This document shows positions 39,969 to 57,994 of a stretch of DNA of 64,000 nucleotides, one piece after another. Numbering within the stretch: position 1 is the stretch's first letter; the number at the start of each line of letters is the position of its first letter. The position numbers and the translations under genes are program-made. The stretch lies in the NCBI RefSeq assembly GCF_001605725.1, contig NZ_CP011530.1:2418001-2482000 (forward strand), given 5' to 3'. The notes below the pieces were generated by a model. It was not told the origin of the DNA, searched no databases, and saw only the letters and a program-made list of their open reading frames with translations. Source of the DNA: Mycobacteroides immunogenum. Lineage in GTDB: Bacteria > Actinomycetota > Actinomycetes > Mycobacteriales > Mycobacteriaceae.

Positions 39969-39977
39969 GTCCCCAGT

Positions 39978-42316: not shown

Positions 42317-43069
42317 TCAGGCGGTGGCCCACCGAGTATCGGTCAATGCGCTGCGCAACGACTTGGACGGCGCCACCCTGAGCTCGTCATAGAGAAGCTT
42401 CTGCACCTGGCGAAAGATGTGGGCGGCTTCGGCATGGCGGCCGAGCATGCGGAGAGCCACGATGTGGCTCTCCCAGATCTTCTCGTTGTACGGCATCTCC
42501 AATGTGAACTGGTGAGCGACAACCGCAGCCTTGTGGAAACGCTGCAACGCCAGGTAGCAGTCGAGCAAGACTTCCTGGGCAAGCTCCTTGTGGGAGTTCA
42601 GCTCACGCAGGAACCCCTGTGCCCGGGCACTTTCGGGCATGGCGGCAAACGGAACGCCCCGCCACTGTGCCAGTGCGTTCTCCAGCATTGCCACGGCAAT
42701 GGAAGGAACCTTGGTTTGCAATGTGACGGCTTCATTTACCGAGTCGATAAATTGATGCGCGTCTACATCTCGGCGGTGAATATCGAGGAAATAGCCGGAT
42801 CGGCCTGCTGTTTGCAGAATATCGGAAGTCGCGCCTTCGGTATGGAGCCATTGTCTTAAACGGCGTACATGGGCATGTAATGCGTTGATTGTATCTTTAG
42901 TAGTCTCATTAAGACCGAGTTCCTCAATCAATTCATCACGCTGCATGACCTCCCGCGGACGAATGGCGAGCAATGCCAACGCGCACTGAAGTCTTACCCC
43001 TGATGGGATGCAGATTCGGTCGGTGACCCTTACCTGAACGGGTCCCAACAGATCGATTTGTGCATGCAT
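42317..43069 (-). CDS. SARP-family pathway activator
   Basis: SARPs (AfsR/DnrI group) switch on secondary-metabolite operons. This 250-residue protein has the minimal layout: an OmpR-type winged helix (residues 1-95, LLGPVQV, RLQCALALLAI, LHAHVRRLRQWL) and a bacterial transcriptional activation domain (about 100-245) of paired helices. There is no ATPase or sensor domain. It is divergent from a 16-gene run whose first gene carries direct repeats of the SARP type, so it very probably controls that run. An EmbR relative is the other option, but the FHA domain of EmbR is absent. Confidence 0.88.
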   Translation of the reverse strand: MHAQIDLLGPVQVRVTDRICIPSGVRLQCALALLAIRPREVMQRDELIEELGLNETTKDTINALHAHVRRLRQWLHTEGATSDILQTAGRSGYFLDIHRRDVDAHQFIDSVNEAVTLQTKVPSIAVAMLENALAQWRGVPFAAMPESARAQGFLRELNSHKELAQEVLLDCYLALQRFHKAAVVAHQFTLEMPYNEKIWESHIVALRMLGRHAEAAHIFRQVQKLLYDELRVAPSKSLRSALTDTRWATA

Positions 43070-43093
43070 CGATAAGGCCCCCTACAGCTACCA

Positions 43094-43107
43094 GGTTTGG
43101 TTAAACC
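43094..43107. promoter_or_regulatory. GGTTT/AAACC inverted repeat before the SARP gene
   Basis: An inverted repeat (GGTTT-GGTT-AAACC) lies 25-38 bp before the SARP start, in a likely promoter or operator position. No cognate regulator is identified; the TetR gene at 56894 is one candidate. Confidence 0.3.
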
Positions 43108-43238
43108 CATGGTCATGTTTGCGTATTGAGCTTAGCCGTAAACGAAACCCATGTCATCTTGAGGATCGGCCAGGCGGTGTCGGGAAAATGACTCTGACAA
43201 GTAGCTGCACTGCACCTGTAGTACCTATATCGACCATT

Positions 43239-43264
43239 TCAGAGACAAGTCAGCATCGTTTCAG
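43239..43264 (+). promoter_or_regulatory. Putative SARP operator: three TCAG repeats at 11-bp spacing
   Basis: TCAG begins at 43239, 43250 and 43261, exactly 11 bp apart; the outer two sit in the longer identical octamer TTTCAGAG. Direct heptamer repeats in 11-bp phase are the known binding pattern of SARPs, which bind as head-to-tail units on one face of the helix. The repeats are about 60-85 bp upstream of the aldehyde dehydrogenase start. The rest of this 253-bp gap shows no gene. Confidence 0.6.
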
Positions 43265-43322
43265 AGGGCTCTGGCACTGTCCTGCCGAAGGTCGGAAGAG
43301 AACCACGGACAGAAGGGCACAC

Positions 43323-44945
43323 ATGACGATCAGCGACACCGCGCCCGCGGCGACACTGGTCTCCTACGGGAGCTATATCGGTGGCGAACAAGTAACTGAC
43401 GACCGGTGGATATACGTTGCTGACCCACGTGCAGTGCTTGAAGATTCGTTTGCTACTTTGACTCTGAAGCGACGGTTGGACTCCGGTGAGCAGCAGTACA
43501 GCCCGGACATGACGGGCATCGTGGGCCGAGTCGCCGTCGGCACGGACGCGCAGATGCGCGCCGCCATCGCGGCCGCGGCCCGGGCCGCCAAGGTATGGCG
43601 CGCGGCCCCACTGCAGGTGCGGGTGGATGACTTCCTCGCGCACCTGGGTGCGCAGATTCTCGGCCAGCGGGAGAAAATCGAGCAGATGGCCCTGTATGAG
43701 GGTCATCCCCGGGAACTGGTGAAATGGGAAGTCTCGGGCTGGCTGGCCACCACGACCCCGCAGTCCAGAGACTTTTACCGCAGCCAGCTGTGGTACGAGA
43801 CGTTCGACGGGGACTCACGGCGCATCGTGCGCCGCTGCGCCGACGGCGTGGTGTGCATCAATCCGCCGGCGAACGCGCCCATGTCCAGCGCAATGCTCGC
43901 GGCCACCAGTGTGATGGCGGGCAACGCCGTGGTTATCCGTGCGCCCAGGTCTGTACCGCTGGGTGTCTTCTACAGCATGATCGAGATCATCGCCCCTGTC
44001 CTCGAGGCTGTCGGGGCGCCCGTGGGCACGATCAACGTGGTCTGCTCCGAGCCGGCACCGGCTTTCGAGCAATGGTTGGACAGTCCGCTGGTCAACGACA
44101 TCATGTACTTCGGGGCGGTCGAGCCCGGGCTCGAAATCGAGCGCCAGTGCGTGGCGGCAGGTAAGAAGCCGATCCTCGAACTGGCCGGCAACGATGTCGT
44201 CGTGGTGTGGTCGGACGCCAATCTGGACTACGCTTCTGATGCTCTCCTCGAGGCGTTCTTTGGCTCCGGACAGCTCTGCATGATTCCCAATCTTGTTGTA
44301 GCTCATCCTGATATTGCCGATGATCTCATCGCTCTGGTCATCGCGAAGGCTGCGGCCATCCGGATTGGATACCCCGACGAAGACGGTGTGCTGTTATCTC
44401 CGGTGCTGCGGCACGACAAGTTCCACAGCGTCCTGGGCGACGCTCTGGACAACGGGGCTCAGTTGTTGGCCGGTGGCGGTAGCGTGCATGTCGACGGCTC
44501 TCCGTCGGAGACCGGAATGTTTTTGCAGCCCACGGTTATCCGTGTCGATGGGCTGAAAAACTCACGCAGAGTAAAGGCTGTCGAACACGAGACCTTCTTT
44601 CCCTTGCTGCCGATCGTGGTGCCGGACGGCAGCGACGGCGACTTCACCGTCTCGACGGTCGTCGACTTTGTGAACACGAACCTGTATGGGCTGCGCAACT
44701 CACTATGGTCAAGTAGCGCAACGATTATCGATACGTACGTGGCGAACGTCACCAATACCGGCATCATCAAGGTGAACGAATCGCATATCGCGTTCGGTGC
44801 GCCGCTGCCCACGCATGGTGGAACCGCCCTGACGGGTGGGGCATTCGGCGAGGCGAACTATCCGGCCCTGCGCACTTCCCACATCCAGGGTGTGGCGATC
44901 TCCTACACCCCGCATCCGCCGCGGCACTACAAGGAGCAGTCATGA
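43323..44945 (+). CDS. NAD(P)-dependent aldehyde dehydrogenase
   Basis: This 540-residue protein oxidises an aldehyde to an acid, or works with CoA. The catalytic Glu is in ILELAGND and the nucleophilic Cys in FFGSGQLCM, so the site is intact; the NAD motif ANAPMSS and the conserved TNTGIIKVNES region are also present. The start is ATG 43323 with AGAAGGG upstream; the frame continues further upstream without support. As first gene after the putative SARP operator, it opens the cluster and overlaps the next gene by 4 bp. The substrate is unknown; an amino-aldehyde made by the amine oxidase downstream is a reasonable guess. Confidence 0.87.
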   Translation: MTISDTAPAATLVSYGSYIGGEQVTDDRWIYVADPRAVLEDSFATLTLKRRLDSGEQQYSPDMTGIVGRVAVGTDAQMRAAIAAAARAAKVWRAAPLQVRVDDFLAHLGAQILGQREKIEQMALYEGHPRELVKWEVSGWLATTTPQSRDFYRSQLWYETFDGDSRRIVRRCADGVVCINPPANAPMSSAMLAATSVMAGNAVVIRAPRSVPLGVFYSMIEIIAPVLEAVGAPVGTINVVCSEPAPAFEQWLDSPLVNDIMYFGAVEPGLEIERQCVAAGKKPILELAGNDVVVVWSDANLDYASDALLEAFFGSGQLCMIPNLVVAHPDIADDLIALVIAKAAAIRIGYPDEDGVLLSPVLRHDKFHSVLGDALDNGAQLLAGGGSVHVDGSPSETGMFLQPTVIRVDGLKNSRRVKAVEHETFFPLLPIVVPDGSDGDFTVSTVVDFVNTNLYGLRNSLWSSSATIIDTYVANVTNTGIIKVNESHIAFGAPLPTHGGTALTGGAFGEANYPALRTSHIQGVAISYTPHPPRHYKEQS

Positions 44946-46084
44946 TCCTGGAAACCACCGGTACCGCGTACGAAATCACGGAGAATCTGTTGCCGGGAAT
45001 CCTCGACGCGCTCGCGGAGGACCCCCTGCGTGAGCTGGAGTCGCCGGGTAGCCGCGGAATCGAGATTTTCCGCAAGTTCAATGGGCCTGCGCTGGTCATC
45101 CCCACGGCACATTCCGGGGTCGGCGCCACCCCCTTGGAAACGGTGGCGGTGATGCGTGCGATCGCCACCAAATCGCCATCGCTGGCGGTAGCGACCGCGA
45201 TGCACCATTTTTCGGTCGCTACGTTGTTTACCTTGGCAGATAGCCTGCAGGCCAGCGGATTTGAATGGGCGATGCTGGAGGTGATCGCATCCCAGCGCAT
45301 GCTGGTCTCCTCTGCCTTCGCCGAGGGCAGTCCAGGGCAGAGCGTGATCTCGCCGACTGTCACGGCCCGGCGGGCGGCAGGCGGTGTGATAGTCAACGGT
45401 TCCAAAAAGCCCTGCAGTCTTTCGGCATCCATGGACTTTTTGTCAATGAGCATGGCTCTACCAGCCCAAAACGGAGCTGCCCCGGAGACTGTCTTCGCGC
45501 TGATCCCCGCGCAAACCGAAGGCGTCACTATTCATCCGTTCTGGGGTACGGACATCCTGGCCGGCGCGGAAAGCGATGAAGTCCGTCTCACCGACGTGTT
45601 CATCGACGACCAACTGACGGTGCCGGCCAACAACGAGGGTGGCGCCCTGGATTTGTTGCAGACGATCGGATTCGTCTGGTTTGAGCTGTTGATCACCAGC
45701 TGCTACCTGGGGGCGGCTACCGCCCTGGCGGAGAAGGTGTTCCAGCGACGCCGGGCCTCGTCGAGCGTGCTATCGGAGCTGTCGGTACGTCTGGAGACGG
45801 CTACCTTGCTGCTGGAGAGAGTCGCGATGCATTTGCAGTACGAAACGGTGGACAACCGTTCCTTGGTGGGCGCCCTCCAAGCCCGTTACGGTGCGCAGGA
45901 CGCCATTCGTGATGCCGCGGCGCTATCCGTGGAAGCCCTTGGCGGAATCGGCTTTATCAGCTCGAACGACATCGCCTACCTGTCGAGCGTCTGCCAATGT
46001 GCGCCCTTCCATCCGCCCTCACGGCTATCGCTGGCCGACGCTCTGGCGCGCGCGGTCATCGGCGAACCGCTGCGCCTGGACTAG
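44942..46084 (+). CDS. Acyl-CoA dehydrogenase-like flavoprotein
   Basis: The 380-residue protein follows the acyl-CoA dehydrogenase fold: N-terminal helices, a flavin-contact region (SSAFAEGSPGQ), a beta domain (GGVIVNGSKKPCS) and a C-terminal helical part with EALGGIGF. The usual C-terminal YEGT segment, which carries the base in many members, is replaced by a Cys/Pro-rich stretch (CQCAPFHPPSR). It may therefore use another base or catalyse a different flavin reaction. ATGA overlap with the aldehyde dehydrogenase gene points to a common transcript. Confidence 0.82.
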   Translation: MILETTGTAYEITENLLPGILDALAEDPLRELESPGSRGIEIFRKFNGPALVIPTAHSGVGATPLETVAVMRAIATKSPSLAVATAMHHFSVATLFTLADSLQASGFEWAMLEVIASQRMLVSSAFAEGSPGQSVISPTVTARRAAGGVIVNGSKKPCSLSASMDFLSMSMALPAQNGAAPETVFALIPAQTEGVTIHPFWGTDILAGAESDEVRLTDVFIDDQLTVPANNEGGALDLLQTIGFVWFELLITSCYLGAATALAEKVFQRRRASSSVLSELSVRLETATLLLERVAMHLQYETVDNRSLVGALQARYGAQDAIRDAAALSVEALGGIGFISSNDIAYLSSVCQCAPFHPPSRLSLADALARAVIGEPLRLD

Positions 46085-46100
46085 GGGAGAGGACACCAGC

Positions 46101-47378
46101 ATGTCAGTAACAGCAAGGCCGCAGGCGCCGACTGCCGCGCATATCGCCCGGATATACAAAACGCATCTCAGCAGTGGCCGCGCCACCTTGGGCGACATAT
46201 TCGGTGGCCACATCGAAACATCCTCCGACGGAGCCTGGCTCACCACCGCGGAAGGTGTGCGTTTCCTCAATGCCGGTGGATACGGCGTCGCCCTCGCCGG
46301 ATATCGGCACCCGGTCATCGTCGAGCACATCCGTCGACAGCTGGATCACCATCCGGTGTCCTCCCGCATGTTCTACGAACCGGCCGCCGCCGAAGCCGCG
46401 GCCGCACTGGCCGCCATCACCCCCAACGGTCTCGACCGCATTCACTTCGCGTGCTCGGGTGCCGAGGCCACCGAGGCCGCCATGAAACTCGCACGCCTGA
46501 ACGGGTGCCGGCGGTTCATTTCGATGACGGGCGGCTACCACGGAAAAACGCTGGGCGCACTGTCCTTAACGGCGCGGGAGGTGTTCCAGGCCCCGTTCCG
46601 GCCGCTGTTGCCCGGAGTGAGTCATGTGCCGTACGGAGATATCGGGGCACTGCGCACCGAACTTGCGATGAGCACGGCGCGCGCGTGCGTGATCGTTGAA
46701 CCGGTACAGGGCGAGGCCGGCGTCATCATTCCCCCCAGCGGGTATCTGGCGGGTCTGCGTGCGGTATGCGACGAGTACGGGGCGCTGCTGGTCGCCGACG
46801 AGATCCAAACCGGACTCGGCCGGCTTGGGCAGTGGTGGGGCGTGGACCGGGAGCATGTCATTCCCGATATCTTGTTGTCCGGCAAGATGCTTGGTGGTGG
46901 AGTGATGCCTGTCTCGGCGGCCATCACCACTACCGAGTGTTTCCGCCAGCTCGACCGCGACCCCTATCTGCACACCTCGACATTCTCGACCAGCCCGCTG
47001 GGCATGGCAGCGGTCAGCGGGGCGCTGCGCGTAATTGCCGAGGAGGGACTCGTCGCACGGGCCGCGGCGCTCGGGCAGATTCTCCTGGACAGGATCAGTG
47101 CGGCAAGCGCGCAGTGGTTCGCCCCCGAGCACGTGCAGGTGCGCGGCCGCGGATTACTGATCGGTATCGAGTTCGCAGACGCCTCGATCGTGGGGGACCT
47201 GTTGATCGAGCTCATCAGCAACAACATCATCGTCAACCACTCACTGAATTCTGATCACGTCCTGCGGTTGACACCGCCGGCCGTCATCTCCGATGAGGAT
47301 GTCGAATTTCTCATCCAGGGCTACCAGAACGCGATTGAGCGGGTGGCCGTCCGTGCCAAGGCAGCGCTGCCCGGCTGA
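46101..47378 (+). CDS. Class III PLP aminotransferase
   Basis: This 425-residue enzyme moves an amino group between an omega-amino compound or ornithine-like substrate and a keto acid. The PLP lysine is in LLSGKMLGGG, the aspartate in VADEIQTGLGR, and the pre-cofactor segment in SGAEATEAAMKLAR. The nearest familiar relatives are ornithine, acetylornithine and 4-aminobutyrate aminotransferases. The start ATG 46101 has GGGGAGAGGA upstream. Together with the amine oxidase and aldehyde dehydrogenase it suggests handling of an amine or diamine. Confidence 0.88.
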   Translation: MSVTARPQAPTAAHIARIYKTHLSSGRATLGDIFGGHIETSSDGAWLTTAEGVRFLNAGGYGVALAGYRHPVIVEHIRRQLDHHPVSSRMFYEPAAAEAAAALAAITPNGLDRIHFACSGAEATEAAMKLARLNGCRRFISMTGGYHGKTLGALSLTAREVFQAPFRPLLPGVSHVPYGDIGALRTELAMSTARACVIVEPVQGEAGVIIPPSGYLAGLRAVCDEYGALLVADEIQTGLGRLGQWWGVDREHVIPDILLSGKMLGGGVMPVSAAITTTECFRQLDRDPYLHTSTFSTSPLGMAAVSGALRVIAEEGLVARAAALGQILLDRISAASAQWFAPEHVQVRGRGLLIGIEFADASIVGDLLIELISNNIIVNHSLNSDHVLRLTPPAVISDEDVEFLIQGYQNAIERVAVRAKAALPG

Positions 47379-47414
47379 TCACACATAAGCACACAGAAGT
47401 AGGAAGGACAGCTC

Positions 47415-47912
47415 ATGCGTACCGCACAACTGATCGTCGACTCCAGCTCCCATCCCGATGAGGCGTATCGCGCCATCGCTCAATTCGAGGAGTACCCCCA
47501 ATACGTCGAGGACATCTCCTCGATCACCGTGCGATCGGACGACCCGAGCGCCCTGGTGCCGGAAACCACCTACAGCGACTGGGAAGTGATTTTCCGCAAT
47601 GGCCCACTGCGCTGGACCGAGGTCGACTACCACAACCCCGTTGACCGCAGCATCGCCTTCGAACAGCTATCAGGTGACTTTGAGGTTTTCCGGGGCAGAT
47701 GGCTGGTGGAACCCGGCCCGGTCGGATCCCGGGTCAGTTTCGAAGTCACCTTCGACTTCGGGATTCCCAGCCTGGCAGGGGTTCTCGAGCCCATCGCCGA
47801 ACGTGTACTCAAAGAGAGCATCTTCACCATAATGTCCCGCACCATCGCCGACGTGCGGCCGGTGACCCGCGAGAGCCTGGGACTGGCCGCCGAATCCGTC
47901 GCCGCGCGCTGA
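47415..47912 (+). CDS. START/SRPBCC cyclase-like protein
   Basis: A 165-residue single-domain protein of the polyketide cyclase/COQ10 fold: alpha-helical AYRAIAQFEEYPQYVEDISSI early, RWTEVDYHNP in the middle and a long C-terminal helix. These proteins bind hydrophobic or aromatic ligands and sometimes catalyse ring closure. No polyketide synthase is nearby, so its ligand is unclear. Confidence 0.8.
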   Translation: MRTAQLIVDSSSHPDEAYRAIAQFEEYPQYVEDISSITVRSDDPSALVPETTYSDWEVIFRNGPLRWTEVDYHNPVDRSIAFEQLSGDFEVFRGRWLVEPGPVGSRVSFEVTFDFGIPSLAGVLEPIAERVLKESIFTIMSRTIADVRPVTRESLGLAAESVAAR

Positions 47913-47949
47913 CCCCAACTCCTACGAAAAGAATTAGGGGACAAAGAAT

Positions 47950-48438
47950 ATGGACCACATAAACCGTTTCGAGACGAAGACCACGTTCGGGCTGTTGCGT
48001 GCCGAATACTTCGTCGGCATGACAGTCTCAGGGGCTCTCCTGATCTGGAACATCTCCGATGTGCGGTGGCTGCCGGCGATCTTGTTGTTCAGCTACATCG
48101 ATCTGGTCGGCTATATACCTGGTGTCATCGCCCATTTCACCCAAAAGCGAGAACCTCTACCGAAGTACTACTACGTCCTCTACAACACCATGCACAGTTT
48201 CTTGACTCAGTCGGTGGTCATCGCACTGTGGGCGTACTTCGTGGGATGGGAATGGGCGCTCCTCGTCATCCCGCTGCACTTGTGCGGAGACCGCGCGCTG
48301 TTCGGAAACTTCATGAAGCAGTTTTCGATTCCCTTTGAGCCCAAAGCCATACCTGAGTTTCAAGAATTCGAGCAGAAGTTGAGCCAGCGCACTCAGCACT
48401 CCACGAAAGCGCCGGGATATGCCGACATCGCTGGATGA
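47950..48438 (+). CDS. Unrecognised integral membrane protein
   Basis: This 162-residue protein has about four hydrophobic segments (near 22-35, 42-60, 88-105 and 108-120). Conserved-looking polar residues lie at their edges: HSFLTQ, LHLCGDRALFGNFMK, and a PKYYYVLYN loop. I do not recognise a family. It overlaps the flavin reductase gene by 20 bp and sits within the operon, so it could anchor the pathway to the membrane or act as a membrane oxygenase or transferase. Confidence 0.7.
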   Translation: MDHINRFETKTTFGLLRAEYFVGMTVSGALLIWNISDVRWLPAILLFSYIDLVGYIPGVIAHFTQKREPLPKYYYVLYNTMHSFLTQSVVIALWAYFVGWEWALLVIPLHLCGDRALFGNFMKQFSIPFEPKAIPEFQEFEQKLSQRTQHSTKAPGYADIAG

Positions 48439-48958
48439 GTATCGGCGGCTGCGCCACAGCCGTACCGATGTAGACCGGACCCGCACCCTCAGCTTCTACC
48501 GAACCCTGTCATCCACTGTCAGCATCGTCTCGGCGATGAGCGATGAACTCGGGCCCCTGGGGTTGACAGTTTCCGCGGTCACCGCGGTCTCCGCTGAGCC
48601 GCCCCTGTTGTCCGTCTGCCTGGCCCACGAGTCGCAAACCCTGCGCGCTGCCGCGGAATCCGGACGCTTCGCGGTCCATGTTCTGCAAGCGCACCAACAA
48701 GGCTTGGCCACCGAATTCGCCACCACGCACACTCCGAGGTTCCGTGGGCACGGATTCGAGCACTCCTTCGGGGTGCCGATTTTGACGGAGGCCGAAACCT
48801 GGTCCGTCTGTGAGGTTGTCGACACATGTGGATACGGCGATCGGACGCTGCTGATAGGGCACGTCATCCACACCCACGAAGGCGCCAAGAACGCACCGCT
48901 GGTCTGGCACGACAGCAGCTTCCTGCCCGTCACCGAACATCAAGAGAGGGATCAATGA
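48419..48958 (+). CDS. Flavin reductase (HpaC-like)
   Basis: This 179-residue protein belongs to the flavin reductase-like FMN-binding family (FYRTLSSTVSIVSA, GLTVSAVTAVSAEPPLLSVCL, FAVHVL). Such proteins use NAD(P)H to supply reduced flavin to partner monooxygenases and halogenases. The flavin-dependent halogenase two genes downstream is the obvious partner. It overlaps the preceding gene by 20 bp and the next by 4 bp. Confidence 0.88.
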   Translation: MPTSLDEYRRLRHSRTDVDRTRTLSFYRTLSSTVSIVSAMSDELGPLGLTVSAVTAVSAEPPLLSVCLAHESQTLRAAAESGRFAVHVLQAHQQGLATEFATTHTPRFRGHGFEHSFGVPILTEAETWSVCEVVDTCGYGDRTLLIGHVIHTHEGAKNAPLVWHDSSFLPVTEHQERDQ

Positions 48959-50373
48959 ACGGAATAGAAATCGGGCACCTCGCCGAGACCGCCCCCATCT
49001 GGTGGCCAGACTCGCCGGCGAGTGCGCCCGCGATCACCGACGGGCACCACGACGTCGACGTGCTGGTGATAGGGGCCGGTCTGGCCGGGCTGACGGCCGC
49101 GTACTTCGTCACCGAGTTACGCCCGGAACTGTCCGTAGCGGTGCTGGAAGCCAAACACGTGGGTGCGGGCGCTACCGGGCGCAGCACGGGCATCGTCTCG
49201 CCCGGCTTGAGCATGCCGATGGCCGCGTTTCGGCGCAAGTACGGCGATGATGCCGCCATCGCCTCGTTCGACGCCACGTTCCACGGCGTCGAACTACTGC
49301 GTGACCTGGTGGCCAAAGAGAACATCGATTGCGATGCGCGCAATGAGCCGCACACCCTCGTCGCCCTCACCGACCGTTCGCTGGCGCGCATGGTCACGCA
49401 TCTGGAAAACCTCGCCGAACTGGGCCGTGAGGTGCCTTGGCTGAGTTCCCAAGAAGTCACCGAGTGGGCCGGGCCGGGCTACAAGGCGGGATTCGCCTAC
49501 CGCAATGCCATGGTCGTGGACCCCTACCGGTTGGTCACCGGCCTGGCTGACACCCTGCGCCGGCGCGGTGCCGCGGTGTACGAGCACAGCCCGGTGATCA
49601 ACGTCGAAGCCGACGCCACCGGGGTATGTGTTTCCACGGCACGTGCTCAAGTGCGGGCCCGGCGCGTCTTCCTGGCCACCGACGGCTACTCCGGGGGCCT
49701 CAATCCGCTGAAATCTTCCGTCATTCCGCTGCGTACTCATCTACTGGCGACCGCACCACTGACCGACGCGCAACTCGCGGAATTGGGTTGGTCGGGTCGG
49801 GGCGCCATCATCGATCAACGAACCTTCTTCAACTACTACCGTATGTCCGCGGACAAGCGGGTGGTATTCGGCGGTGGGCCCGCGTTTGTGCCGTCGCGAG
49901 TGCCTTCTCGAGACATCAAGAGATCTCGGGTAATTCAGCAGCGTGTCCGTCAGGAACTGACAGAGCGATTCCCGGTTCTGGCCGACGTCGAAGTTGACGC
50001 CGCCTGGTCTGGCATTACCGCCAGCTCCTTTGATCGCAACCCGGTGGTGGGTCCGGTACCAGGGATGGACGGCCTCTGGTTTGCCGGAAGTTGGTGCGGA
50101 CATGGGTTTTCCACGTCGGTGGACACTGGCTGGCGTTTCGCCAAGACCCTGGTGGGCGAACCGTTGCCGTCCAACATCCCATGGTTCCGCTCGGGCGCTC
50201 AGCGTGTGCCCACCACGCTGCTGCGCAACGTGGCCATCGGCGCCTACTTGAAGGCCCTTGATGCCGCTGACGCGCTGGACACTAAGACCAGCGCGCCGCC
50301 GCAGCAGTCGCGACCAGTCACGCGATCGCAGACAAGCACGGGTACAACGACATTGGCGGAGGCAGAGAAATGA
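48955..50373 (+). CDS. FAD-dependent amine oxidase, DAO/PuuB type
   Basis: This 472-residue enzyme belongs to the D-amino acid oxidase-like group that oxidises amines or amino acids. The FAD motif is VLVIGAGLAGLTAAYF near residue 40, followed by GAGATGRSTGIVSPG, typical of PuuB-like oxidases that act on polyamine derivatives. The C-terminal FAD region (PGMDGLWFAGSWCGHGFSTS) is intact. The start ATG 48955 overlaps the reductase stop (ATGA), and the end overlaps the halogenase start by 4 bp. Substrate unknown. Confidence 0.86.
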   Translation: MNGIEIGHLAETAPIWWPDSPASAPAITDGHHDVDVLVIGAGLAGLTAAYFVTELRPELSVAVLEAKHVGAGATGRSTGIVSPGLSMPMAAFRRKYGDDAAIASFDATFHGVELLRDLVAKENIDCDARNEPHTLVALTDRSLARMVTHLENLAELGREVPWLSSQEVTEWAGPGYKAGFAYRNAMVVDPYRLVTGLADTLRRRGAAVYEHSPVINVEADATGVCVSTARAQVRARRVFLATDGYSGGLNPLKSSVIPLRTHLLATAPLTDAQLAELGWSGRGAIIDQRTFFNYYRMSADKRVVFGGGPAFVPSRVPSRDIKRSRVIQQRVRQELTERFPVLADVEVDAAWSGITASSFDRNPVVGPVPGMDGLWFAGSWCGHGFSTSVDTGWRFAKTLVGEPLPSNIPWFRSGAQRVPTTLLRNVAIGAYLKALDAADALDTKTSAPPQQSRPVTRSQTSTGTTTLAEAEK

Positions 50374-52112
50374 CGACACCAGAACTGGCACATAATCACG
50401 ATGTGATCATCGTGGGCGGTGGGATCGGTGGCTCGACCCTGGCGGCCATTTTGGCGCGGCATGGGGTGCGGGTGCTGATGGTTGAAGCCAGCGGGCATCC
50501 GCGGTTCGCGATCGGCGAGTCGACGGTCCCGGAAACCATTATGGGACTGCGCAACCTCGCGTTGCGCTACGACGTCCCTGAGATAGGTGACCTGTCGGCG
50601 CACGGCACCCTTTCGAAGAAGGTCAGCTCGGGATCCGGAGTCAAACGCAATTTCAGTTTCGTCTACCACCAGGAAGGGATGCGGTCCAAGCCCACCGAGT
50701 ACACCCAATACCCCACCTGGGGACCACCGATCGGTCCGGACTCGCATTTTTTCCGCCAAGACGTCGACGCCTACATGTACCAAGTAGCCCTCTCCTACGG
50801 TGCCAAGGGCCTCACCCACACCCCGGTGACCGATGTGACCTTCGGCGCCGAGGAGGTCACCATCGAGACGGACGGTGCAGGCGAGTTCACTGCCAGCTAC
50901 CTCGTGGATGCCGGGGGAATGCGCAGCATCCTGGGCGAGAAGCTGGATCTTCGAATCGACCCGCCCTACCGGACGAAATCGCGCACCATTTTCAGTCATT
51001 TCACCGGAGTGCGGCCGTTCGACGATGTGGTGGAAGCGCAAGCGCGCCAAGGAGCGGTGAGCCCGTTCAGTCAAGGAACACTGCACCACCTGTTCCATGG
51101 CGGCTGGGCATGGGTGATCCCCTTCGACAACTACCTGGGATCCACCAGCAGGCTGTGCAGCGTCGGAATCAACTTGGATCTGGACCGCTACCCGGTTCAG
51201 CCCGAACTATCGGCGGAGGCGGAATTCTGGAAGCACATCGGCAGGTTCCCCGATTTCGCCGCACAAATGGCCGGCGCCAGTGCGGTACGCCCCTACACTG
51301 CTTCACGGCGCAGCCAGTTCGCGTCGAAGCAAGTGGTCGGCGACCGGTGGTGCCTATTGCCGCATGCCTCGGATTTCATCGATCCGCTGTTCTCCAGCGG
51401 CCTGGCTGTCACGGTGATGATCCTCAATGCGTTGGGGCACCGGCTGATTGACGCCGTGCGGAACAACTGCTTCAGTACCGAACGGTTCTCATATGTCCAG
51501 GAATGGACCAAGCTTTCGTTCGACTACTACGACAAGCTGGTCTCCGCTTCGTACACCAGCTTTGACAGTTTCGAACTGTGGAACGCCTGGTTCCGGGTCT
51601 GGACGATCGGAACCCTGTACGGCGTCAACGGGCAGATGGAGGCCTCATTCGACTTCGATCGGTCGCACAATCGATCCGCTTTCGGGGTGCTGGAGTGCGC
51701 ACCGTACCGTGGCATCCAGGGCATCGACAACACGGTCATCTCCGCCATGTTCAATCGGGCTCTGGCGGCCATCGACGAATATGACGCGGGGCTGATCGAC
51801 GCGGCACAGGCTCAGCAGCAGATCTATGCCGCGCTGCGCGAAAGTGAACTCATCCCGGGATTCTGGAACACCCTCGATCCCGCGGATCAATGCCCGTCGG
51901 GTGCCTTCACCTTGTTCTCGATGACCCGGATTCTCACCTGGGGCAAGTATCAAAGCCCCGAGCATGTGCGCGGGCAGTACTTCAAGTCCGGGTTTGGTCC
52001 CGTCATCAAAGAAGCCGCCAAGTTCTATGGCGGTACTGTCAAAACCGGTGTCCGCGAGGCGAATCATGCGATACGGGACATGGTGACCTCGAGAAACAGC
52101 GACTGGAAGTAG
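50370..52112 (+). CDS. Flavin-dependent halogenase
   Basis: This 580-residue protein has the marks of a flavin-dependent halogenase: GGGIGG at 16-21, the GEST segment at 49-52, a candidate catalytic Lys in the GVKRNF segment near 92, the WxWxIP signature at 246-251 (WAWVIP) and FxDPxxSxG at 336-344. WxWxIP separates halogenases from ordinary monooxygenases by keeping substrate away from the flavin. A flavin reductase gene lies two genes upstream. The lack of an adjacent carrier protein suggests a free substrate. It could install chloride or bromide on an aromatic or electron-rich ring. Confidence 0.88.
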   Translation: MTTPELAHNHDVIIVGGGIGGSTLAAILARHGVRVLMVEASGHPRFAIGESTVPETIMGLRNLALRYDVPEIGDLSAHGTLSKKVSSGSGVKRNFSFVYHQEGMRSKPTEYTQYPTWGPPIGPDSHFFRQDVDAYMYQVALSYGAKGLTHTPVTDVTFGAEEVTIETDGAGEFTASYLVDAGGMRSILGEKLDLRIDPPYRTKSRTIFSHFTGVRPFDDVVEAQARQGAVSPFSQGTLHHLFHGGWAWVIPFDNYLGSTSRLCSVGINLDLDRYPVQPELSAEAEFWKHIGRFPDFAAQMAGASAVRPYTASRRSQFASKQVVGDRWCLLPHASDFIDPLFSSGLAVTVMILNALGHRLIDAVRNNCFSTERFSYVQEWTKLSFDYYDKLVSASYTSFDSFELWNAWFRVWTIGTLYGVNGQMEASFDFDRSHNRSAFGVLECAPYRGIQGIDNTVISAMFNRALAAIDEYDAGLIDAAQAQQQIYAALRESELIPGFWNTLDPADQCPSGAFTLFSMTRILTWGKYQSPEHVRGQYFKSGFGPVIKEAAKFYGGTVKTGVREANHAIRDMVTSRNSDWK

Positions 52113-52120
52113 CCCCGGTC

Positions 52121-53440
52121 GTGAGCAACGCAGCGGTGCTGGCCGCGGGGGCCTTGCCCAAAGACGTGTCCCTGATCTTTTTCGCCGACCTGGTTATCTT
52201 GTTAGTGGCGGCTCTCGCATGCGGGGCGGCCGCCAACAAGATCGGGCTACCCAAGATGGTCGGCGAGATCGCCGCGGGTGTCCTGCTGGGCCCCACGGTA
52301 TTTGGGCGACTTTTCCCGGAAACCGCGGATGTACTTTTTCCCTCGGCCGGTGCCGGTTCGGAAATCATCTCGGGCCTGTGCCTGCTGGCGGTGGTGCTGT
52401 TGGTCGGGGTCGCGGGCATGCATGTCGACGTCGACAAGCTCAAGCAGCGGCTGGCCGGTATCGCCGCGATCAGTGCGTTGGGGCTCGCCATACCGTTGGC
52501 CGGGGGTATCGCGATCGGATACATGGTGCCCGAACCGCTGCGGCCAGCCGCCGTCGATCGCACGGTGTTCGCGTTGTTCCTGGGCACCGCGGTAGCGGTC
52601 TCGGCGATACCGGTGATTGCCCGGATCCTGATGGATCTGGGCCTGGCATCGCATGAGATCGCACAGGTGATCCTGGCCGCCGCGATCATCGACGATGTCG
52701 CGGGGTGGCTGCTGCTGTCGGTGGTGACCGGCATGGCCGCCGATGCCGGCGCCGGAGGCCTTGCCGCTCTGAAAATGGCAGCTGTGGCCATCGCCGCGGT
52801 CGCCGCGCTGGCGGTGCTGGTCCGCCCCGCGCTACGGAAGCGGCTAGCACGCCAGTGCTCGCGGTGGAGTGCCCCGACATCCACTACGGTCACCGTGGCC
52901 ACCATCATCGTGTGCGCCACCGCGGGCCAACTACTGGGTTTTGAACCGGTCATCGGGGCCTTCTTCGCGGGCATATTGGTGACCGCGGCGACACCGTCGG
53001 GCAGCCGAGTCCATAAACCGTTGCATGCCATGGCTGTTGCTTTCTTCGGTCCGATATTTTTCGCGACCATCGGGCTGCAGCTGGACCTGGGCAGGCTGCT
53101 CTCCGGACCGGTGCTGGCGCTGACCGCCACCATATGTGTGGTCGCGGTTCTCTCGAAATTCCTCGGTGCGGGGCTGGGCGCCAGGATCAGTGGATTCAGC
53201 TGGCCCGAATCCATCGCGATAGGAGCGGGCCTCAACACGCGCGGTGTCATTCAGATCGTGATCGCCATGGTCGGGGTGCGATGCGGGGTGTTCAGCCCGG
53301 AAGTGTTCACCGCACTCGTGGTAACCACCATCGCCACAACAGCGATCGCCGGTCCGGTCCTCACCCGCGCGCTGGCGCCCAGCCGACTTCCAGTGGCTCC
53401 GGTTTCCAATCCCACGAAAGAGCCCGCGCTCAACCGATAA
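52121..53440 (+). CDS. CPA2-family cation/proton antiporter
   Basis: This 439-residue membrane protein has 12-13 predicted helices and the CPA2 core: KMVGEIAAGVLLGPT early, AVSAIPVIARIL in helix 5 and the ion-binding AAIIDDVAG in helix 6. It starts at GTG 52121, 8 bp after the halogenase stop. A few CPA2 members export metabolites or sense small molecules; here it may serve resistance or ion balance for the pathway. Confidence 0.85.
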   Translation: MSNAAVLAAGALPKDVSLIFFADLVILLVAALACGAAANKIGLPKMVGEIAAGVLLGPTVFGRLFPETADVLFPSAGAGSEIISGLCLLAVVLLVGVAGMHVDVDKLKQRLAGIAAISALGLAIPLAGGIAIGYMVPEPLRPAAVDRTVFALFLGTAVAVSAIPVIARILMDLGLASHEIAQVILAAAIIDDVAGWLLLSVVTGMAADAGAGGLAALKMAAVAIAAVAALAVLVRPALRKRLARQCSRWSAPTSTTVTVATIIVCATAGQLLGFEPVIGAFFAGILVTAATPSGSRVHKPLHAMAVAFFGPIFFATIGLQLDLGRLLSGPVLALTATICVVAVLSKFLGAGLGARISGFSWPESIAIGAGLNTRGVIQIVIAMVGVRCGVFSPEVFTALVVTTIATTAIAGPVLTRALAPSRLPVAPVSNPTKEPALNR

Positions 53441-53469
53441 ATTCCTGCAAAACAAGGGAAGTGATAGTC

Positions 53470-54456
53470 GTGCCCGAGAAAACCGTCAACACCGGCGACC
53501 CGGTGGCCGCCATTGCCGCATACGCTGACCATCCCAGCGCTTTCATTGCCTGTAACGACGACACCAGCCACTTCAGCACACCGGACATCGCCGGAATTGT
53601 CGCCTATCGCCGCCGCGGCCGAACGGTCTTCGTGCTCGGCGGCCCGTTCGCCGCCGGGCCGGAACGTGGTGCCTTGCTCGACCGGTTCCTCGACGAGATT
53701 GTCGCGGGCCGCAACATGGTCGCGGTGCAAGTCCGGCAAGAGGACACCGCATTGTTCGCGTCTCGCGGCTTCACCGTCGACCAATTTGGCAGCTCTTATT
53801 CGGTGCATCTGGCCGATTTCACCAAGAAGGGCAAGCCTCTGGCCAAGGTCCGCCAGAACGTCTCGCGGGCCGGCCGTGAGGGCACAGCGGTGCGCGAAAT
53901 CGATATCGCCAACGCACCAGGCGAATTGGAGGAGATCGACCGTACATGGTTGCGCGCCAAAGGGTGGCACGTCAAAAAACTCGACTTCATGGTGGGGCAG
54001 CGAGCCGGGCGTGGCAGTGATCGCAAACGGTTGTTCATCGCCGAGCGTGAAGGGCAGGTCACCGGCTACATCTCGTACTCGCCGGCATTCGGAGCCAGGC
54101 CGGGTTGGCTGTATGACCTGACCCGCCGGCACCCGGACGCTTCGGTGGGCACCATTGAGATGATCAACCTCGCGGCCATCGAGCAGTTCCGCGGCGAAGG
54201 CGCCGGTTGGCTGCACCTGGGTCTGACGCCCTTCGCGAGCATCGGTGAACAATGTCCCGATGGATCCAGCGGCGTGGTGCGCTGGATGGTGCGTCAACTC
54301 GCCGAGAAGGGCGACAAGGTCTATCCGGCCAAGACGCAAGAAGCGTTCAAACGTAAATGGGCGCCCCATGTCATCGAACCGGAGTACCTCGCGTTCGCCA
54401 ACGGTCCGCGCCTTTCGTCGGTATGGCACCTGTTGCGCTTGACCAATGCCCTCTAA
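53470..54456 (+). CDS. Aminoacyltransferase-like protein (DUF2156/LPG synthase C-terminal domain)
   Basis: The 328-residue protein corresponds to the cytosolic double-GNAT domain of phosphatidylglycerol lysyltransferases (VLGGPFAAG, QVRQEDTALFASRGF, RQNVSRAGREG, RTWLRAKG, EMINLAAIEQF, GLTPFASIG). Full-length enzymes of that kind move an amino acid from aminoacyl-tRNA to a lipid, but the membrane half is missing here, so a soluble small-molecule acceptor is possible. GTG 53470 was chosen, with AAGGGA about 10 bases upstream. Inside a biosynthetic operon it may aminoacylate the product. Confidence 0.8.
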   Translation: MPEKTVNTGDPVAAIAAYADHPSAFIACNDDTSHFSTPDIAGIVAYRRRGRTVFVLGGPFAAGPERGALLDRFLDEIVAGRNMVAVQVRQEDTALFASRGFTVDQFGSSYSVHLADFTKKGKPLAKVRQNVSRAGREGTAVREIDIANAPGELEEIDRTWLRAKGWHVKKLDFMVGQRAGRGSDRKRLFIAEREGQVTGYISYSPAFGARPGWLYDLTRRHPDASVGTIEMINLAAIEQFRGEGAGWLHLGLTPFASIGEQCPDGSSGVVRWMVRQLAEKGDKVYPAKTQEAFKRKWAPHVIEPEYLAFANGPRLSSVWHLLRLTNAL

Positions 54457-54516
54457 ACGCATACCTGTGCAAATACATTCGCCAAAATCACCCACTTTCA
54501 TCCGGAAGGCCACACC

Positions 54517-55272
54517 ATGACAACCATGAGCGCGCAACCTGGCAGCCTGAGCCGCGCCGAGCAGATGCGCTTCGCGCGGGTCGCAGTGGCCGCCCAGGTG
54601 AAGTCTCTTCCCGGCACCATCCGGGCCCGGCTCGGACGCGCTGATTCCAGTGCGCTGGCCCGTGAAAGCGCCCCGCCGGATTCCGCGCTGGCGTTGGACG
54701 CCGAACGTTTTGTGACAGAGCACTACACCACGAGCTTGTACAACCATTGCTTGCGTTGCTGGTACTTCGGGGATTTCTTCGCCCAGCTGGAAGGCCACCG
54801 ATATGACCCTGAACTGCTGTACATTTCGAGTCTGTTTCACGACGTGGCGCTGACTCGCCAGTTCCGTGACCACCGCCCCTACGCCTGCTTTGCCGTCGAG
54901 GGCGCGGACATTGCCAAAGAGTGGCTTTCGCGGAACAACGCCACCGATGCCTTTGCCGCCGGCGTGGCCGAAGTAATCGCCGCTCATATGGATGTACATG
55001 TGCCCTCCGGCTCGGCCACCGGAGTTGAGCCGTATCTGCTCCACGAGGCCGCCCATCTTGATGTGGCAGGCACTCGTGCGGCGCAGGTGCCGTCGACTTA
55101 CACGCGCCTGGTCGCACGGCGGCATCCGCGCACCGGCTTCGCCCGCGCGTTCAGCGATGCGATGAAATACGAGTCCTTGCAGCGCAGGGCATCACGGGCA
55201 GCGGTGCTGTGGAAGGTAGGCATGGCAATCCCGATCAACACCAACCCGCTGGATTCGGCGGCGCACCGATGA
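54517..55272 (+). CDS. HD-domain hydrolase, cyanamide-hydratase-like
   Basis: This 251-residue protein carries an HD metal site: His in TSLYNHCLRCW, the His-Asp pair in SSLFHDVALT, and further His in AAHMD. The order and the FAVEGADIAKEWL stretch resemble cyanamide hydratase-type HD proteins rather than nucleotidases. Real activity is unknown. GGAAGG precedes the ATG. It lies between the aminoacyltransferase-like gene and a membrane protein gene. Confidence 0.72.
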   Translation: MTTMSAQPGSLSRAEQMRFARVAVAAQVKSLPGTIRARLGRADSSALARESAPPDSALALDAERFVTEHYTTSLYNHCLRCWYFGDFFAQLEGHRYDPELLYISSLFHDVALTRQFRDHRPYACFAVEGADIAKEWLSRNNATDAFAAGVAEVIAAHMDVHVPSGSATGVEPYLLHEAAHLDVAGTRAAQVPSTYTRLVARRHPRTGFARAFSDAMKYESLQRRASRAAVLWKVGMAIPINTNPLDSAAHR

Positions 55273-55303
55273 CGGCGATGTACAGACGTTGGGGCGGTGG
55301 CGC

Positions 55304-55747
55304 ATGACGCGATCGGCGGCCGCAGAGCCCAGCGGTGGCCTGCTGGGGCCGGTCATGGCGGTGTTCGGTGCGGTCTTCGTGGGGCTGGGCATCTGGGGGG
55401 CCAGCGACCCGGCATCATTCGGCAGTACCATCGCGAATTTCGGTGTGTACAACCCGCATCTGATCCACGATTACGCCGTGTGTTCCATCACCTTTGGCAC
55501 GGGGCTGTTGTTGGGTTGGCGGGCACCGGAGTGGCGCGCGCCGACACTGATCTTGGCTGCGATCTGGAATGGCCTGCATGGCTATTTCCACATCGTTGAC
55601 ATGGACATGGCCAACACCAAATTTCTCGGACCCGTCGAAGCGATACTGCTGTGCTCGACCAGCGCGGTGCTGGCCGCACTAGGCATACGGGAATGGCGGC
55701 GCATCAACAGATCTAACGCTGAACACCAGGAGATGAGGGAGCAATGA
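55304..55747 (+). CDS. Small membrane protein, four helices
   Basis: This 147-residue protein shows four hydrophobic segments (about 12-32, 48-67, 74-90, 100-120), with Asn-His pairs at their borders (NPHLIHDY, NGLHGYFHIVD). I do not recognise a defined family with certainty; small DoxX-like or DUF4345-like proteins are comparable. The ATG at 55304 is preceded by a G-rich site, and the end overlaps the hydrolase gene by 4 bp. Confidence 0.65.
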   Translation: MTRSAAAEPSGGLLGPVMAVFGAVFVGLGIWGASDPASFGSTIANFGVYNPHLIHDYAVCSITFGTGLLLGWRAPEWRAPTLILAAIWNGLHGYFHIVDMDMANTKFLGPVEAILLCSTSAVLAALGIREWRRINRSNAEHQEMREQ

Positions 55748-56637
55748 GCGCGAGGCTCGAGGAGAACCGCCACAGCGTCAACACTGACCACGGCCGCCTC
55801 AGCTACCTCGATATCGGCACCGGCCCGGTCGTGGTGTTCGTTCACGGAGTGCTCACCAACAGCCTGCTCTGGCGCAACGTGGTGACCGCGGCCGCGGCAA
55901 CTGGGCGGCGCTGTATTGCCCTGGATCTGCCCGGTCACGGACGCACATCCGTTCCGGCGGCACATGTCGACGTCACCCTGTCTGGGCTCGCCGAACTTGT
56001 CGTCGCCTTCCTCGACGGCATCGGAATCGACCAGTTCGACCTGGTGGCCAACGACACCGGGGGAGCGGTCGCGCAAATCATGGCCGCCGGCCACCCCCAT
56101 CGAATCAGGACCTTGGCCCTGACCAACTGTGATACCGAAGGTCACGTGCCGCCGAAACTGTTCAAACCGGTAGTGGCGCTGGCCCGGCCATCACTGATGG
56201 CCGCGATCGGTCCACGATTTTTTGCGCGGCCCGCAGTGCTCAGAACGCTCTTGGGTGCTGGCTATCGGAAACCCGGCCGCCTGCCGGACGACATCGTCGA
56301 ATCGTATGGACGGCCCGTGTTTGGCACCGCTGAGTCGTCACGCTTCCTGTCAAAGATGCTGCGGGCCATGGATACACGTGACCTTGAGGCTGCGCGCGCC
56401 GGTCTGGCGGCGTTCAGCAAGCCAACGTTGATCGCGTGGGGGCTAGGGGACTACTTCTTTCCACTCAAGTACGGGCAACGCCTGGCCGAACTTTTCGGTG
56501 GTCCCGTGACCTTCGAGACTGTGCCCGACGCCAAACTGTACTTTCCCGATGAGGACGCAGATCGGCTTCTGCCGCTGCTGTACAGACACTGGGATTCGGT
56601 GGGTCAGCGGGAACCCTCCGCCGAGGTGGGGGGTTGA
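55744..56637 (+). CDS. Alpha/beta hydrolase-fold protein with altered active site
   Basis: This 297-residue protein has the oxyanion motif VHGVLTN and DLPGHGRTS. The nucleophile elbow reads ANDTGGA, so the nucleophile would be Asp, as in epoxide hydrolases and dehalogenases. The usual catalytic His near the C-terminus is absent: the expected position falls in DAKLYFPDED. The Trp that follows Asp in haloalkane dehalogenases is Thr here. It may be a binding or atypical enzyme. ATGA overlap joins it to the membrane protein gene. Confidence 0.8.
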   Translation: MSARLEENRHSVNTDHGRLSYLDIGTGPVVVFVHGVLTNSLLWRNVVTAAAATGRRCIALDLPGHGRTSVPAAHVDVTLSGLAELVVAFLDGIGIDQFDLVANDTGGAVAQIMAAGHPHRIRTLALTNCDTEGHVPPKLFKPVVALARPSLMAAIGPRFFARPAVLRTLLGAGYRKPGRLPDDIVESYGRPVFGTAESSRFLSKMLRAMDTRDLEAARAGLAAFSKPTLIAWGLGDYFFPLKYGQRLAELFGGPVTFETVPDAKLYFPDEDADRLLPLLYRHWDSVGQREPSAEVGG

Positions 56638-56638
56638 G

Positions 56639-56827
56639 ATGTTGGAGATGAAGCCCGACTGCGAGAAATGCGGAGCACCACTGAATCACGGCGCAACCGC
56701 ATGGATTTGCAGTTATGAATGTACGTTCTGCCCCCAATGTCACAGTGCCCTGAAAACGTGCCCGAACTGCGGTGGCGAATTGACGACACGCCCGCGGAGG
56801 GGAACATCTACCGCTCCGGCTTCATGA
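56639..56827 (+). CDS. Small zinc-ribbon protein (DUF1272)
   Basis: A 62-residue protein with three CxxC pairs (CEKCGAPL, CTFCPQC, CPNCGGEL) and one more Cys (ICSYEC), typical of the DUF1272 family of small zinc-binding proteins. Function is unknown. The ATG begins 2 bp after the hydrolase stop region, with GAGGTGGGG upstream. Confidence 0.82.
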   Translation: MLEMKPDCEKCGAPLNHGATAWICSYECTFCPQCHSALKTCPNCGGELTTRPRRGTSTAPAS

Positions 56828-56893
56828 GTCCGTCGATTTCCAGATACCGGGAGTCGATTACAAAATAGAGTTCAGAGAGTAGTATCAGGGTCT

Positions 56894-57529
56894 ATGAGCG
56901 AATCCAAGCCGGGTCGCCGCGAGCGCTATGCCGCGCTGACACGCTCGGCGATAGTCGAGGCCGCCAGAATGCTATTTGTCGACCGAGGGTTCGACGACAC
57001 ATCGGTGGACGACATCGCCGACGCGGCCCAGGTGAGTAAAGGTGCCATCTACCACCACTTCAAAGACAAACAAGAGATATTCATCGACGTGTACCGCGAT
57101 GCCACCAAAGGTGTCATCGAAAACGTCGTGAAGGTTCTCATCGATGTACCCGCCGGGTCATGGGATCGGATTGAAGCCGCGGCGAGCGCGGTGATCAAGG
57201 GATACACCGACAACCGTGAGCCGCGCGTGCTCGTACGTCAGGTCATGGGTGTGCTGGGCGCGGAACGCACCCAGGCACTGGAGGGTGAGTTGGCGCTACC
57301 CCTCATACGTACGCTGCTTACCGAAGCGGAAGAGAACGGCGAATTGCGGGACCTCTCGATCGAAAAGGCTTCCCAGCTGATTTTCCGTGTTCTGTGTGAA
57401 TCTTCGTTATTGATCGCCAATTCCGCCGATTACACCGAAGCGGCGCAAGAGGTGGAAACAGTGATGTTGTACATGTTCGCCGGACTGCGTAAACCGCCGG
57501 CGACCGCACGCGCACGGCGTAAGAGCTAG
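56894..57529 (+). CDS. TetR-family repressor
   Basis: The first 60 residues form a TetR helix-turn-helix (ARMLFVDRGFDDTSVDDIADAAQVSKGAIYHHFKDKQEIF). The rest is a helical ligand domain. It is 211 residues long. The 66 bp before it hold two GTCGATT copies 21 bp apart, which may be its operator. It stands after the biosynthetic run and before a START gene; it may also bind the AGTCGGT repeats at 59157-59311. Confidence 0.9.
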   Translation: MSESKPGRRERYAALTRSAIVEAARMLFVDRGFDDTSVDDIADAAQVSKGAIYHHFKDKQEIFIDVYRDATKGVIENVVKVLIDVPAGSWDRIEAAASAVIKGYTDNREPRVLVRQVMGVLGAERTQALEGELALPLIRTLLTEAEENGELRDLSIEKASQLIFRVLCESSLLIANSADYTEAAQEVETVMLYMFAGLRKPPATARARRKS

Positions 57530-57538
57530 CAGAGCCTC

Positions 57539-57994
57539 ATGGAGACCATCGAGGTACGCCGCATCATCGCTGCCCCGATTGCCGACGTTTTCGACTGGGT
57601 CAGCAACGCTGATAATTACACCAACGCGCCGCTGTTCGTGGCGGCCAAGCTGGTACGTCCCGGCAGCGGTGCCGCATATGGAGCCGGCGCCATTCGGCGA
57701 TTCATCTTCCCCTTCGCCGTTGTGCACGAAGAGATCACACACTTCGACCCACCCCACTCATTCGGCTATCGCGTCATCAAGAGCAACCCGCCGGTGCGGC
57801 ACGAAGGCGGTGCGGTAGTCCTGACGTCAACTGCCCAGGGCACGAACCTCGTCTGGTCGTCCACCGCCGAGCTTCGGCTGCCCGTTCTCTCCGAACAAGC
57901 AACGCGACTGGTCTTGCCACGGCTATTTGGTCGAGCATTCTCTCAGGTCCTCGACGCTGCGCAATCCGCGCTTGAGGCTCGCGCCACCCGATAG
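57539..57994 (+). CDS. START/SRPBCC-family protein
   Basis: A 151-residue protein with the polyketide-cyclase fold: IAAPIADVFDWVSNADNYTNAP at the start and a long C-terminal helix after LVLPRLFGRAF. It follows the TetR stop by 9 bp, so both are probably on one transcript. Ligand unknown. Confidence 0.78.
   Translation: METIEVRRIIAAPIADVFDWVSNADNYTNAPLFVAAKLVRPGSGAAYGAGAIRRFIFPFAVVHEEITHFDPPHSFGYRVIKSNPPVRHEGGAVVLTSTAQGTNLVWSSTAELRLPVLSEQATRLVLPRLFGRAFSQVLDAAQSALEARATR

Follow-up and report, generated by a model that had tools for sequence, protein, structure and literature searches.

A gene cluster of Mycobacteroides immunogenum with a probable VlmO-type nitrogen-nitrogen bond pathway, a DAO-family oxidase and a flavin-dependent halogenase

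Enzymes that form nitrogen-nitrogen (N-N) bonds are few and sought after. The valanimycin cluster (vlm) of Streptomyces viridifaciens contains genes for Streptomyces antibiotic regulatory proteins (SARPs), and the amine of valanimycin is made by a valine decarboxylase. Here we analysed a SARP-linked halogenase cluster in a stretch of 64,000 nucleotides of Mycobacteroides immunogenum (contig NZ_CP011530.1, positions 2,418,001 to 2,482,000 of the forward strand; this whole stretch is the window, to which coordinates refer), which, judging from its genes, very probably forms an N-N bond through the opening steps known from azoxy antibiotic pathways. In those pathways the VlmH/VlmR/VlmA/VlmO set joins an alkylamine to an amino acid via an N-N bond (PMC9379638; PMC11705231). 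VlmO is the membrane hydrazine synthase of valanimycin, in which D51, H82, H110 and D114 are essential and serve as iron ligands (PMC11705231), and PF09924 (LPG_synthase_C) is the family by which VlmA was found (PMC9379638). Tryptophan halogenase-like (PF04820) genes were reported in 2022 from the neighbourhood of some VlmA genes, with no product assigned (PMC9379638); for these uncharacterised VlmA groups the main text of that paper describes no mycobacterial case and no split between VlmB and a DAO-type oxidase. Among the papers listed in searches on azoxy compounds, VlmO/VlmB, hydrazones and Mycobacteroides halogenases (none for the last), supplements not covered, we found neither a product for such a cluster nor a description of a mycobacterial case or of VlmB/DAO alternation, in line with the sequence-only reading, which knew of no described mycobacterial counterpart.

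Compared with vlm, the window cluster carries counterparts of VlmH/VlmR, VlmA and VlmO, the last with identical iron ligands, but it lacks VlmB and a tRNA synthetase gene, would take its amine from an aminotransferase, and adds a DAO-family oxidase, a halogenase, an HD-domain protein, a CPA2 antiporter and an MmpL exporter. With the azodyrecin clusters (ady/azd) of Streptomyces it shares the supply of an amine from a fatty acyl group through an aldehyde (Ady2, Ady4), together with Ady3/Ady10, Ady7 and Ady6, whereas Ady8 (VlmB), the desaturase Ady9 and the methyltransferase Ady1 have no counterpart in the cluster and the halogenase and DAO oxidase are extra (PMC9379638). The genes on which the assignment turns are the following (ORF, open reading frame).

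42317..43069, minus strand: small SARP activator (BTAD 1.3e-21, Trans_reg_C 1.6e-9)
43323..44945, plus strand: aldehyde dehydrogenase-fold enzyme (Aldedh 1.4e-51; ORF from 43119, likely start 43323)
44942..46084, plus strand: VlmH-like putative flavin N-hydroxylase of the acyl-CoA dehydrogenase (ACAD) type (Acyl-CoA_dh_M 5.9e-6, below cut-off)
46101..47378, plus strand: class III aminotransferase, putative amine supply (Aminotran_3 2.7e-82; ORF from 45891, likely start 46101)
47950..48438, plus strand: putative VlmO-type membrane hydrazine synthase, 162 amino acids (D51, H82, H110, D114 present)
48419..48958, plus strand: flavin reductase, VlmR-like (Flavin_Reduct 1.3e-33)
48955..50373, plus strand: DAO-family FAD oxidase, proposed VlmB substitute (DAO 1e-61; ORF from 48826, likely start 48955)
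50370..52112, plus strand: flavin-dependent halogenase of the CtcP/PltM/PrnC type (GGGIGG at 16, K92, WAWVIP at 246, FIDPLFSSG at 336)
53470..54456, plus strand: VlmA-like aminoacyl-tRNA-dependent transferase (LPG_synthase_C 3.8e-53; ORF from 53134, likely start 53461 or 53470)

Four of the five parts conserved between the N-N pathways of valanimycin and azodyrecin, the VlmH-, flavin reductase-, VlmA- and VlmO-type proteins, are thus encoded in the cluster. The 162-amino-acid membrane protein has no Pfam or NCBIfam match and no sequence match among solved structures; a protein search returned 789 relatives at E 0.001 or better, one of them named 'DUF4260 domain-containing' by a source, and the azodyrecin protein Ady6 weakly matches DUF4260 (PMC9379638). 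It is a VlmO homologue with D51, H82, H110 and D114 at numbers identical to those in VlmO, and these residues are invariant in 27 aligned sequences and in 91/91 VlmO-locus sequences. The latter come from the window and 90 fetched regions, most with about 9.5 kb per side, in which we also counted the partner genes: the VlmH-like family occurs in 82 of the 91 loci (among them 46 of the 50 with VlmB), the flavin reductase in 63, the VlmA-like gene in 69, an aldehyde dehydrogenase or NAD_binding_4 reductase in 79 and a class III aminotransferase likewise in 79. The linked VlmH/VlmR-like pair was assigned via homologues in VlmB-type loci, and the linked VlmA homologue by its LPG_synthase_C domain. 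It is the VlmO ligands, the VlmA family and the loci pairing these genes with proteins named VlmB-like that lead us to assign the cluster to an N-N pathway. The class III aminotransferase is proposed as the counterpart of Ady4 (PMC9379638), and since it would supply the amine together with the aldehyde dehydrogenase, neither a polyketide synthase (PKS) nor a nonribosomal peptide synthetase (NRPS) would be needed. Elsewhere, the VlmO genes of three loci (L101, L129, L130) keep all four ligands and have none of the other pathway genes for about 9 kb around them.

The fifth part, the diiron azoxy synthase VlmB, was not found in the window cluster with a profile built from 26 sequences of the family named VlmB-like by NCBI, and one VlmB query against the whole genome, in which AurF-type enzymes were not searched for, gave only E 1.59, a 38% identical 55-amino-acid stretch with a stop. 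A first count over the 91 regions gave VlmB only in 50, DAO only in 26, neither in 15 and both in 0 (Fisher p 1.6e-12 for the exclusion, a value that ignores relatedness); 8 of the 90 fetched regions come from genomes found via the halogenase, which inflates the DAO share and leaves the exclusion unaffected. Among the regions with neither, two half-regions (L026, L024) have the DAO gene on the adjoining locus and three others (L188, L192, L194) just outside, so that the corrected count is VlmB 50, DAO 31, neither 10 and both 0. The ten comprise the three loci with VlmO and none of the other genes, four at or near contig ends (L117, L132, L143, L144) and L127, L133 and L134. DAO scores reach at most 18.6 bits in VlmB loci and at least 201 in DAO loci, and even a search at E 10 gives no VlmB match in any of the 26 DAO-only loci. 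Quick trees of the VlmA-like (69 rows) and VlmH-like (81 rows) proteins require at least four switches of type, so one old split fails to explain the alternation. The alternation points to a possible fork in the pathway once VlmO has acted and singles out a candidate enzyme for it. Two DAO-type loci without a window-type halogenase (L113, L136) carry VlmJ/VlmK-like (DagK, PrpD) genes, and the DAO branch may also use serine-dehydration tailoring.

The halogenase has the GxGxxG, WxWxIP and FxDPxxSxG motifs of flavin-dependent halogenases and the conserved lysine. Its nearest solved relatives are tetracycline 7-halogenase (4.4e-120), which we take to be CtcP, and PltM, and relatives of about 40% identity in Pseudomonas protegens, Burkholderia and Serratia are presumably PrnC; on the evidence of the solved relatives a tryptophan-type reading was given up for the CtcP/PltM/PrnC type. 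The window enzyme shares the motifs of tetracycline 7-halogenase and PltM but forms a subfamily of its own, tied to VlmO-DAO clusters. Among 79 loci fetched by halogenase similarity, 26 have enzymes at 54-63% identity (Streptomyces or relatives, Nocardia, Rhodococcus); genes for VlmO, the class III aminotransferase or the first START protein occur within the stretch examined in 23 of these (exceptions L020, L023, L033), and in none of the 53 loci whose enzyme is at most 46% identical. All 14 genomes checked contained VlmO. Of 74 VlmO-bearing genomes, 11 have the close subfamily (at least 1046 bits), and all 11 have a DAO-type locus; the halogenase gene is 12-18 kb away from VlmO in 10 of them and sits on another contig in G1287. 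Eight weaker matches (404-603 bits) were also seen, of which one, at 530 bits, is close to the cluster of G1338, while the others are on separate contigs or, in G1153, distant. Within the 91 regions and the first count, the halogenase occurs in 8 of 26 DAO loci, CPA2 in 9 and the HD gene in 5, compared with 0 of 50 VlmB loci for each. Because nine DAO-type genomes are without the close subfamily, with no match at 1e-100 in eight (G665, G485, G546, G703, G1101, G1274, G1050, G1159) and only a 548-bit match on another contig in G1184, the halogenase is an extra of the DAO branch that not all of its members have. These associations link the substrate of an uncharacterised halogenase subfamily to N-N chemistry and so make it guessable. 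The best-ranked halogenase in plasmid records was 41.7% identical and all 48 records were below 60%; 28 of 40 relatives of the M. immunogenum genome gave a match at E<=0.001, the best 29% identical (2.6e-16), and none was close.

Taking these lines together, we think it reasonably probable that the locus encodes a SARP-linked VlmO-type N-N pathway with a halogenase, in which the DAO oxidase replaces VlmB and a hydrazone or azo product is halogenated. The aldehyde dehydrogenase and aminotransferase would convert a fatty acyl group through an aldehyde to a primary amine, which the VlmH-like enzyme with the flavin reductase would oxidize to a hydroxylamine. The VlmA-like enzyme would then transfer an amino acid from aminoacyl-tRNA to the hydroxylamine oxygen (giving an O-aminoacyl hydroxylamine), and the VlmO-type protein would rearrange this ester to a hydrazino acid with the N-N bond. 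In place of VlmB, the DAO-type FAD oxidase would oxidize the hydrazino acid to a hydrazone or azo compound. Relatives of the window oxidase include glycine and sarcosine oxidase, which oxidize the C-N bond adjoining a carboxylate; since the hydrazino acid offers just such a bond, a hydrazone is the likeliest product. The halogenase would place chlorine or bromine on an electron-rich carbon, which flavin-dependent halogenases require, and in an aliphatic pathway with no gene for an aromatic moiety the obvious choice would be the carbon of the hydrazone, which is speculation on our part. MmpL, and perhaps CPA2, would serve export or tolerance. The product may thus be a halogenated N-N compound of a new kind; that this is specifically an aliphatic hydrazonoyl halide or alpha-halo azo compound from a non-azoxy VlmO branch, possibly with loss of CO2, we consider unlikely, and to our knowledge no biosynthetic pathway to either group has been described.

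Several points weigh against this reading. Behind it stand genes, motifs, conservation and alternation, from which the reactions are predicted; the role of the DAO oxidase in particular is inferred from the alternation. When relatedness was taken into account, each tree offered five independent pairs (2-4 opposite, 0 same), too few for significance, and DAO scores are diverse (201-795 bits). In the ten loci with neither VlmB nor DAO, either of the two may be unnecessary, or some other enzyme may do the work. The AlphaFold model of the VlmO-type protein has a low mean pLDDT of 67 and gave no fold match. The rings on which CtcP and PltM act are phenolic, and nothing in the cluster would evidently supply a ring. 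Lastly, Nocardia pseudovaccinii has a DAO gene (L135) and, about 20 kb off on the same contig (L033), an AurF-family N-oxygenase gene (3.2e-95), and a DAO and a diiron enzyme can therefore share a region in this species. It also has (L033:7456-9920 and L036) two halogenases of the window subfamily, one of which, with a ferredoxin-fused oxidoreductase, neighbours the AurF-family gene; this set might complete the pathway in a third manner.

The N. pseudovaccinii arrangement, an AurF-family gene by a ferredoxin/oxidoreductase and a halogenase, also favours a possible though not probable alternative, namely an ordinary azoxy pathway with halogenation in which the HD protein, the halogenase, the DAO oxidase or a distant diiron oxygenase oxidizes the hydrazine to give a halogenated azoxy product. 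The remaining azoxy core enzymes are indeed present and the HD gene recurs in related loci, but the single VlmB query in the M. immunogenum genome, which did not extend to AurF-type enzymes, and the VlmB profile at E 10 in the 26 DAO-only loci gave no credible VlmB, which speaks against this alternative. It is quite unlikely that the halogenase homologue is a monooxygenase or has some other substrate, leaving the N-N product without halogen: the DAO-type genomes without the subfamily would fit, yet the motifs are intact and the closest solved relatives are named halogenases. The sequence-only reading had proposed a small halogenated amine, of which the halogenation is probably right; the N-N set had gone unrecognised, and an amine-plus-amino-acid hydrazine derivative describes the product better. 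An amine without an N-N bond would account for the aminotransferase, oxidase and halogenase and would give no reason for the homologues of VlmO, VlmA and VlmH or for how tightly they are linked, which makes it highly improbable. NCBIfam matches to PigE and PigA were far below cut-off, and a prodiginine link was dropped.

At E 0.001 or better, VlmO occurs in 2 of 396 genomes of the genus (that of M. immunogenum itself and a marginal match, 34% over 83 amino acids). The share is 12/298 in the order, 8/394 in the class, 63/295 in the genus that includes G796 and Streptomyces, and 15/148 in the Nocardia genus. With this cluster VlmO chemistry would reach the mycobacteria, in which it is very rare. 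It is probably not unique to this strain, since close proteins are named from Mycobacteroides stephanolepidis (a VlmO-type protein 78% identical and a partial halogenase 87% identical). The gene order, in which SARP (minus strand) is followed by aldehyde dehydrogenase, ACAD, aminotransferase and START genes, then VlmO, flavin reductase and DAO, then halogenase and CPA2, is shared by four Nocardia-genus loci (L124, L125, L126, L128), so the gene packing is not by chance, and the close match suggests exchange with Nocardia. Frames were read from stop to stop, so the listed order of VlmO, flavin reductase and DAO varies between related loci.

The SARP gene, with Trans_reg_C and BTAD domains, holds the same divergent place in all four Nocardia loci. 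SARP target promoters have a direct repeat spaced 11 or 22 nucleotides, and the following candidate site was found.

43237..43266, plus strand: putative SARP site (TTTCAGAG at 43237 and 43259, 22 nt apart, upstream of the likely aldehyde dehydrogenase start at 43323)

An exact repeat of at least 8 at 11 or 22 nt arose as well in 7 of 2000 mononucleotide shuffles, and the TTTCAGAG repeat is suggestive only as a SARP site. L125 has ATTTCAGTG twice, 11 nt apart; a general SARP box was rejected, as an exact repeat of this kind is missing from L124, L126 and L128. Promoter and terminator scans gave no more than chance.

All 17 ORFs named by the sequence-only reading are present and open in the window DNA, in the order and on the strands it gave, with the SARP gene divergent from 16 tightly packed genes that run from the aldehyde dehydrogenase to the second START gene and end at 57994. 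The overlaps it reported are there also, of 4 bp at 44942-44945, 50370-50373 and 55744-55747 (and 48955-48958 if DAO starts at 48955) and of 20 bp between the VlmO-type and flavin reductase genes (48419-48438), and several ORF starts are probably too early. Its domain names agree with Pfam (Acyl-CoA_dh_M and DUF998 fall below cut-off and the membrane protein is without a match), and domain searches support its description of a SARP and flavin-dependent halogenase cluster without a backbone synthase. Its limits, 42317-57994, are too narrow, because an MmpL gene adjoins the SARP or VlmO gene in five related loci (the four of Nocardia and L099) and lies one gene from SARP in L036; it is probably a cluster member and a probable exporter of the product. 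The other features are as follows.

39924..42275, plus strand: MmpL/RND exporter (Pfam MMPL 3.2e-69), outside those limits
47415..47912, plus strand: START protein 1, START/SRPBCC (Polyketide_cyc 1.9e-21; in 81/91 VlmO loci)
52121..53440, plus strand: CPA2 cation/proton antiporter (Na_H_Exchanger 2.3e-52; ORF from 51890, likely start 52121)
54517..55272, plus strand: HD-domain protein near the cyanamide hydratase family (HD 1.3e-5; PDB 6dk9 1.6e-6)
55289..55747, plus strand: small membrane protein (DUF998 below cut-off), member by position only
55744..56637, plus strand: alpha/beta hydrolase (Abhydrolase_1 2.3e-25; NDTGG, with Asp, at the nucleophile elbow)
56639..56827, plus strand: DUF1272 protein (7.5e-23; ORF from 56549), member by position only
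56894..57529, plus strand: TetR regulator (TetR_N 1.1e-19), member by position only
57539..57994, plus strand: START protein 2 (Polyketide_cyc2 1.4e-16), member by position only
58001..59122, minus strand: short-chain dehydrogenase/reductase-like protein, possible member (L033 of Nocardia pseudovaccinii has a 40-42% identical gene in the vicinity of its SARP and halogenase)

The CPA2 gene comes after the halogenase in Nocardia and Rhodococcus loci. The HD protein matches TIGR03401 (NCBIfam) at 4e-19, below cut-off; its gene recurs in the four Nocardia loci, and weak kin (29-33%) precede some Streptomyces halogenases. START protein 2 was rejected as a conserved member, its kinship with START genes of L035 and L036 not being supported. 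Genes 29-33% identical to that of the alpha/beta hydrolase occur in L013 and L036. The Asp at its nucleophile elbow is as in haloalkane dehalogenases and epoxide hydrolases; by eye the protein seems to be without the usual catalytic His, and such an enzyme is odd beside a halogenase.

That no PKS or NRPS gene is present is true of the cluster. A hybrid NRPS/PKS set (window 59-30736: C-A-PCP; TE-KS-AT-ACP; KS-AT-MT-ACP; C-A-KR-PCP), accompanied by a formyltransferase, a PhyH dioxygenase, a partial Lys/Orn N-oxygenase and two ABC genes, one bearing a siderophore-interacting domain, lies 20-39 kb upstream and is probably a separate, unusual siderophore locus.

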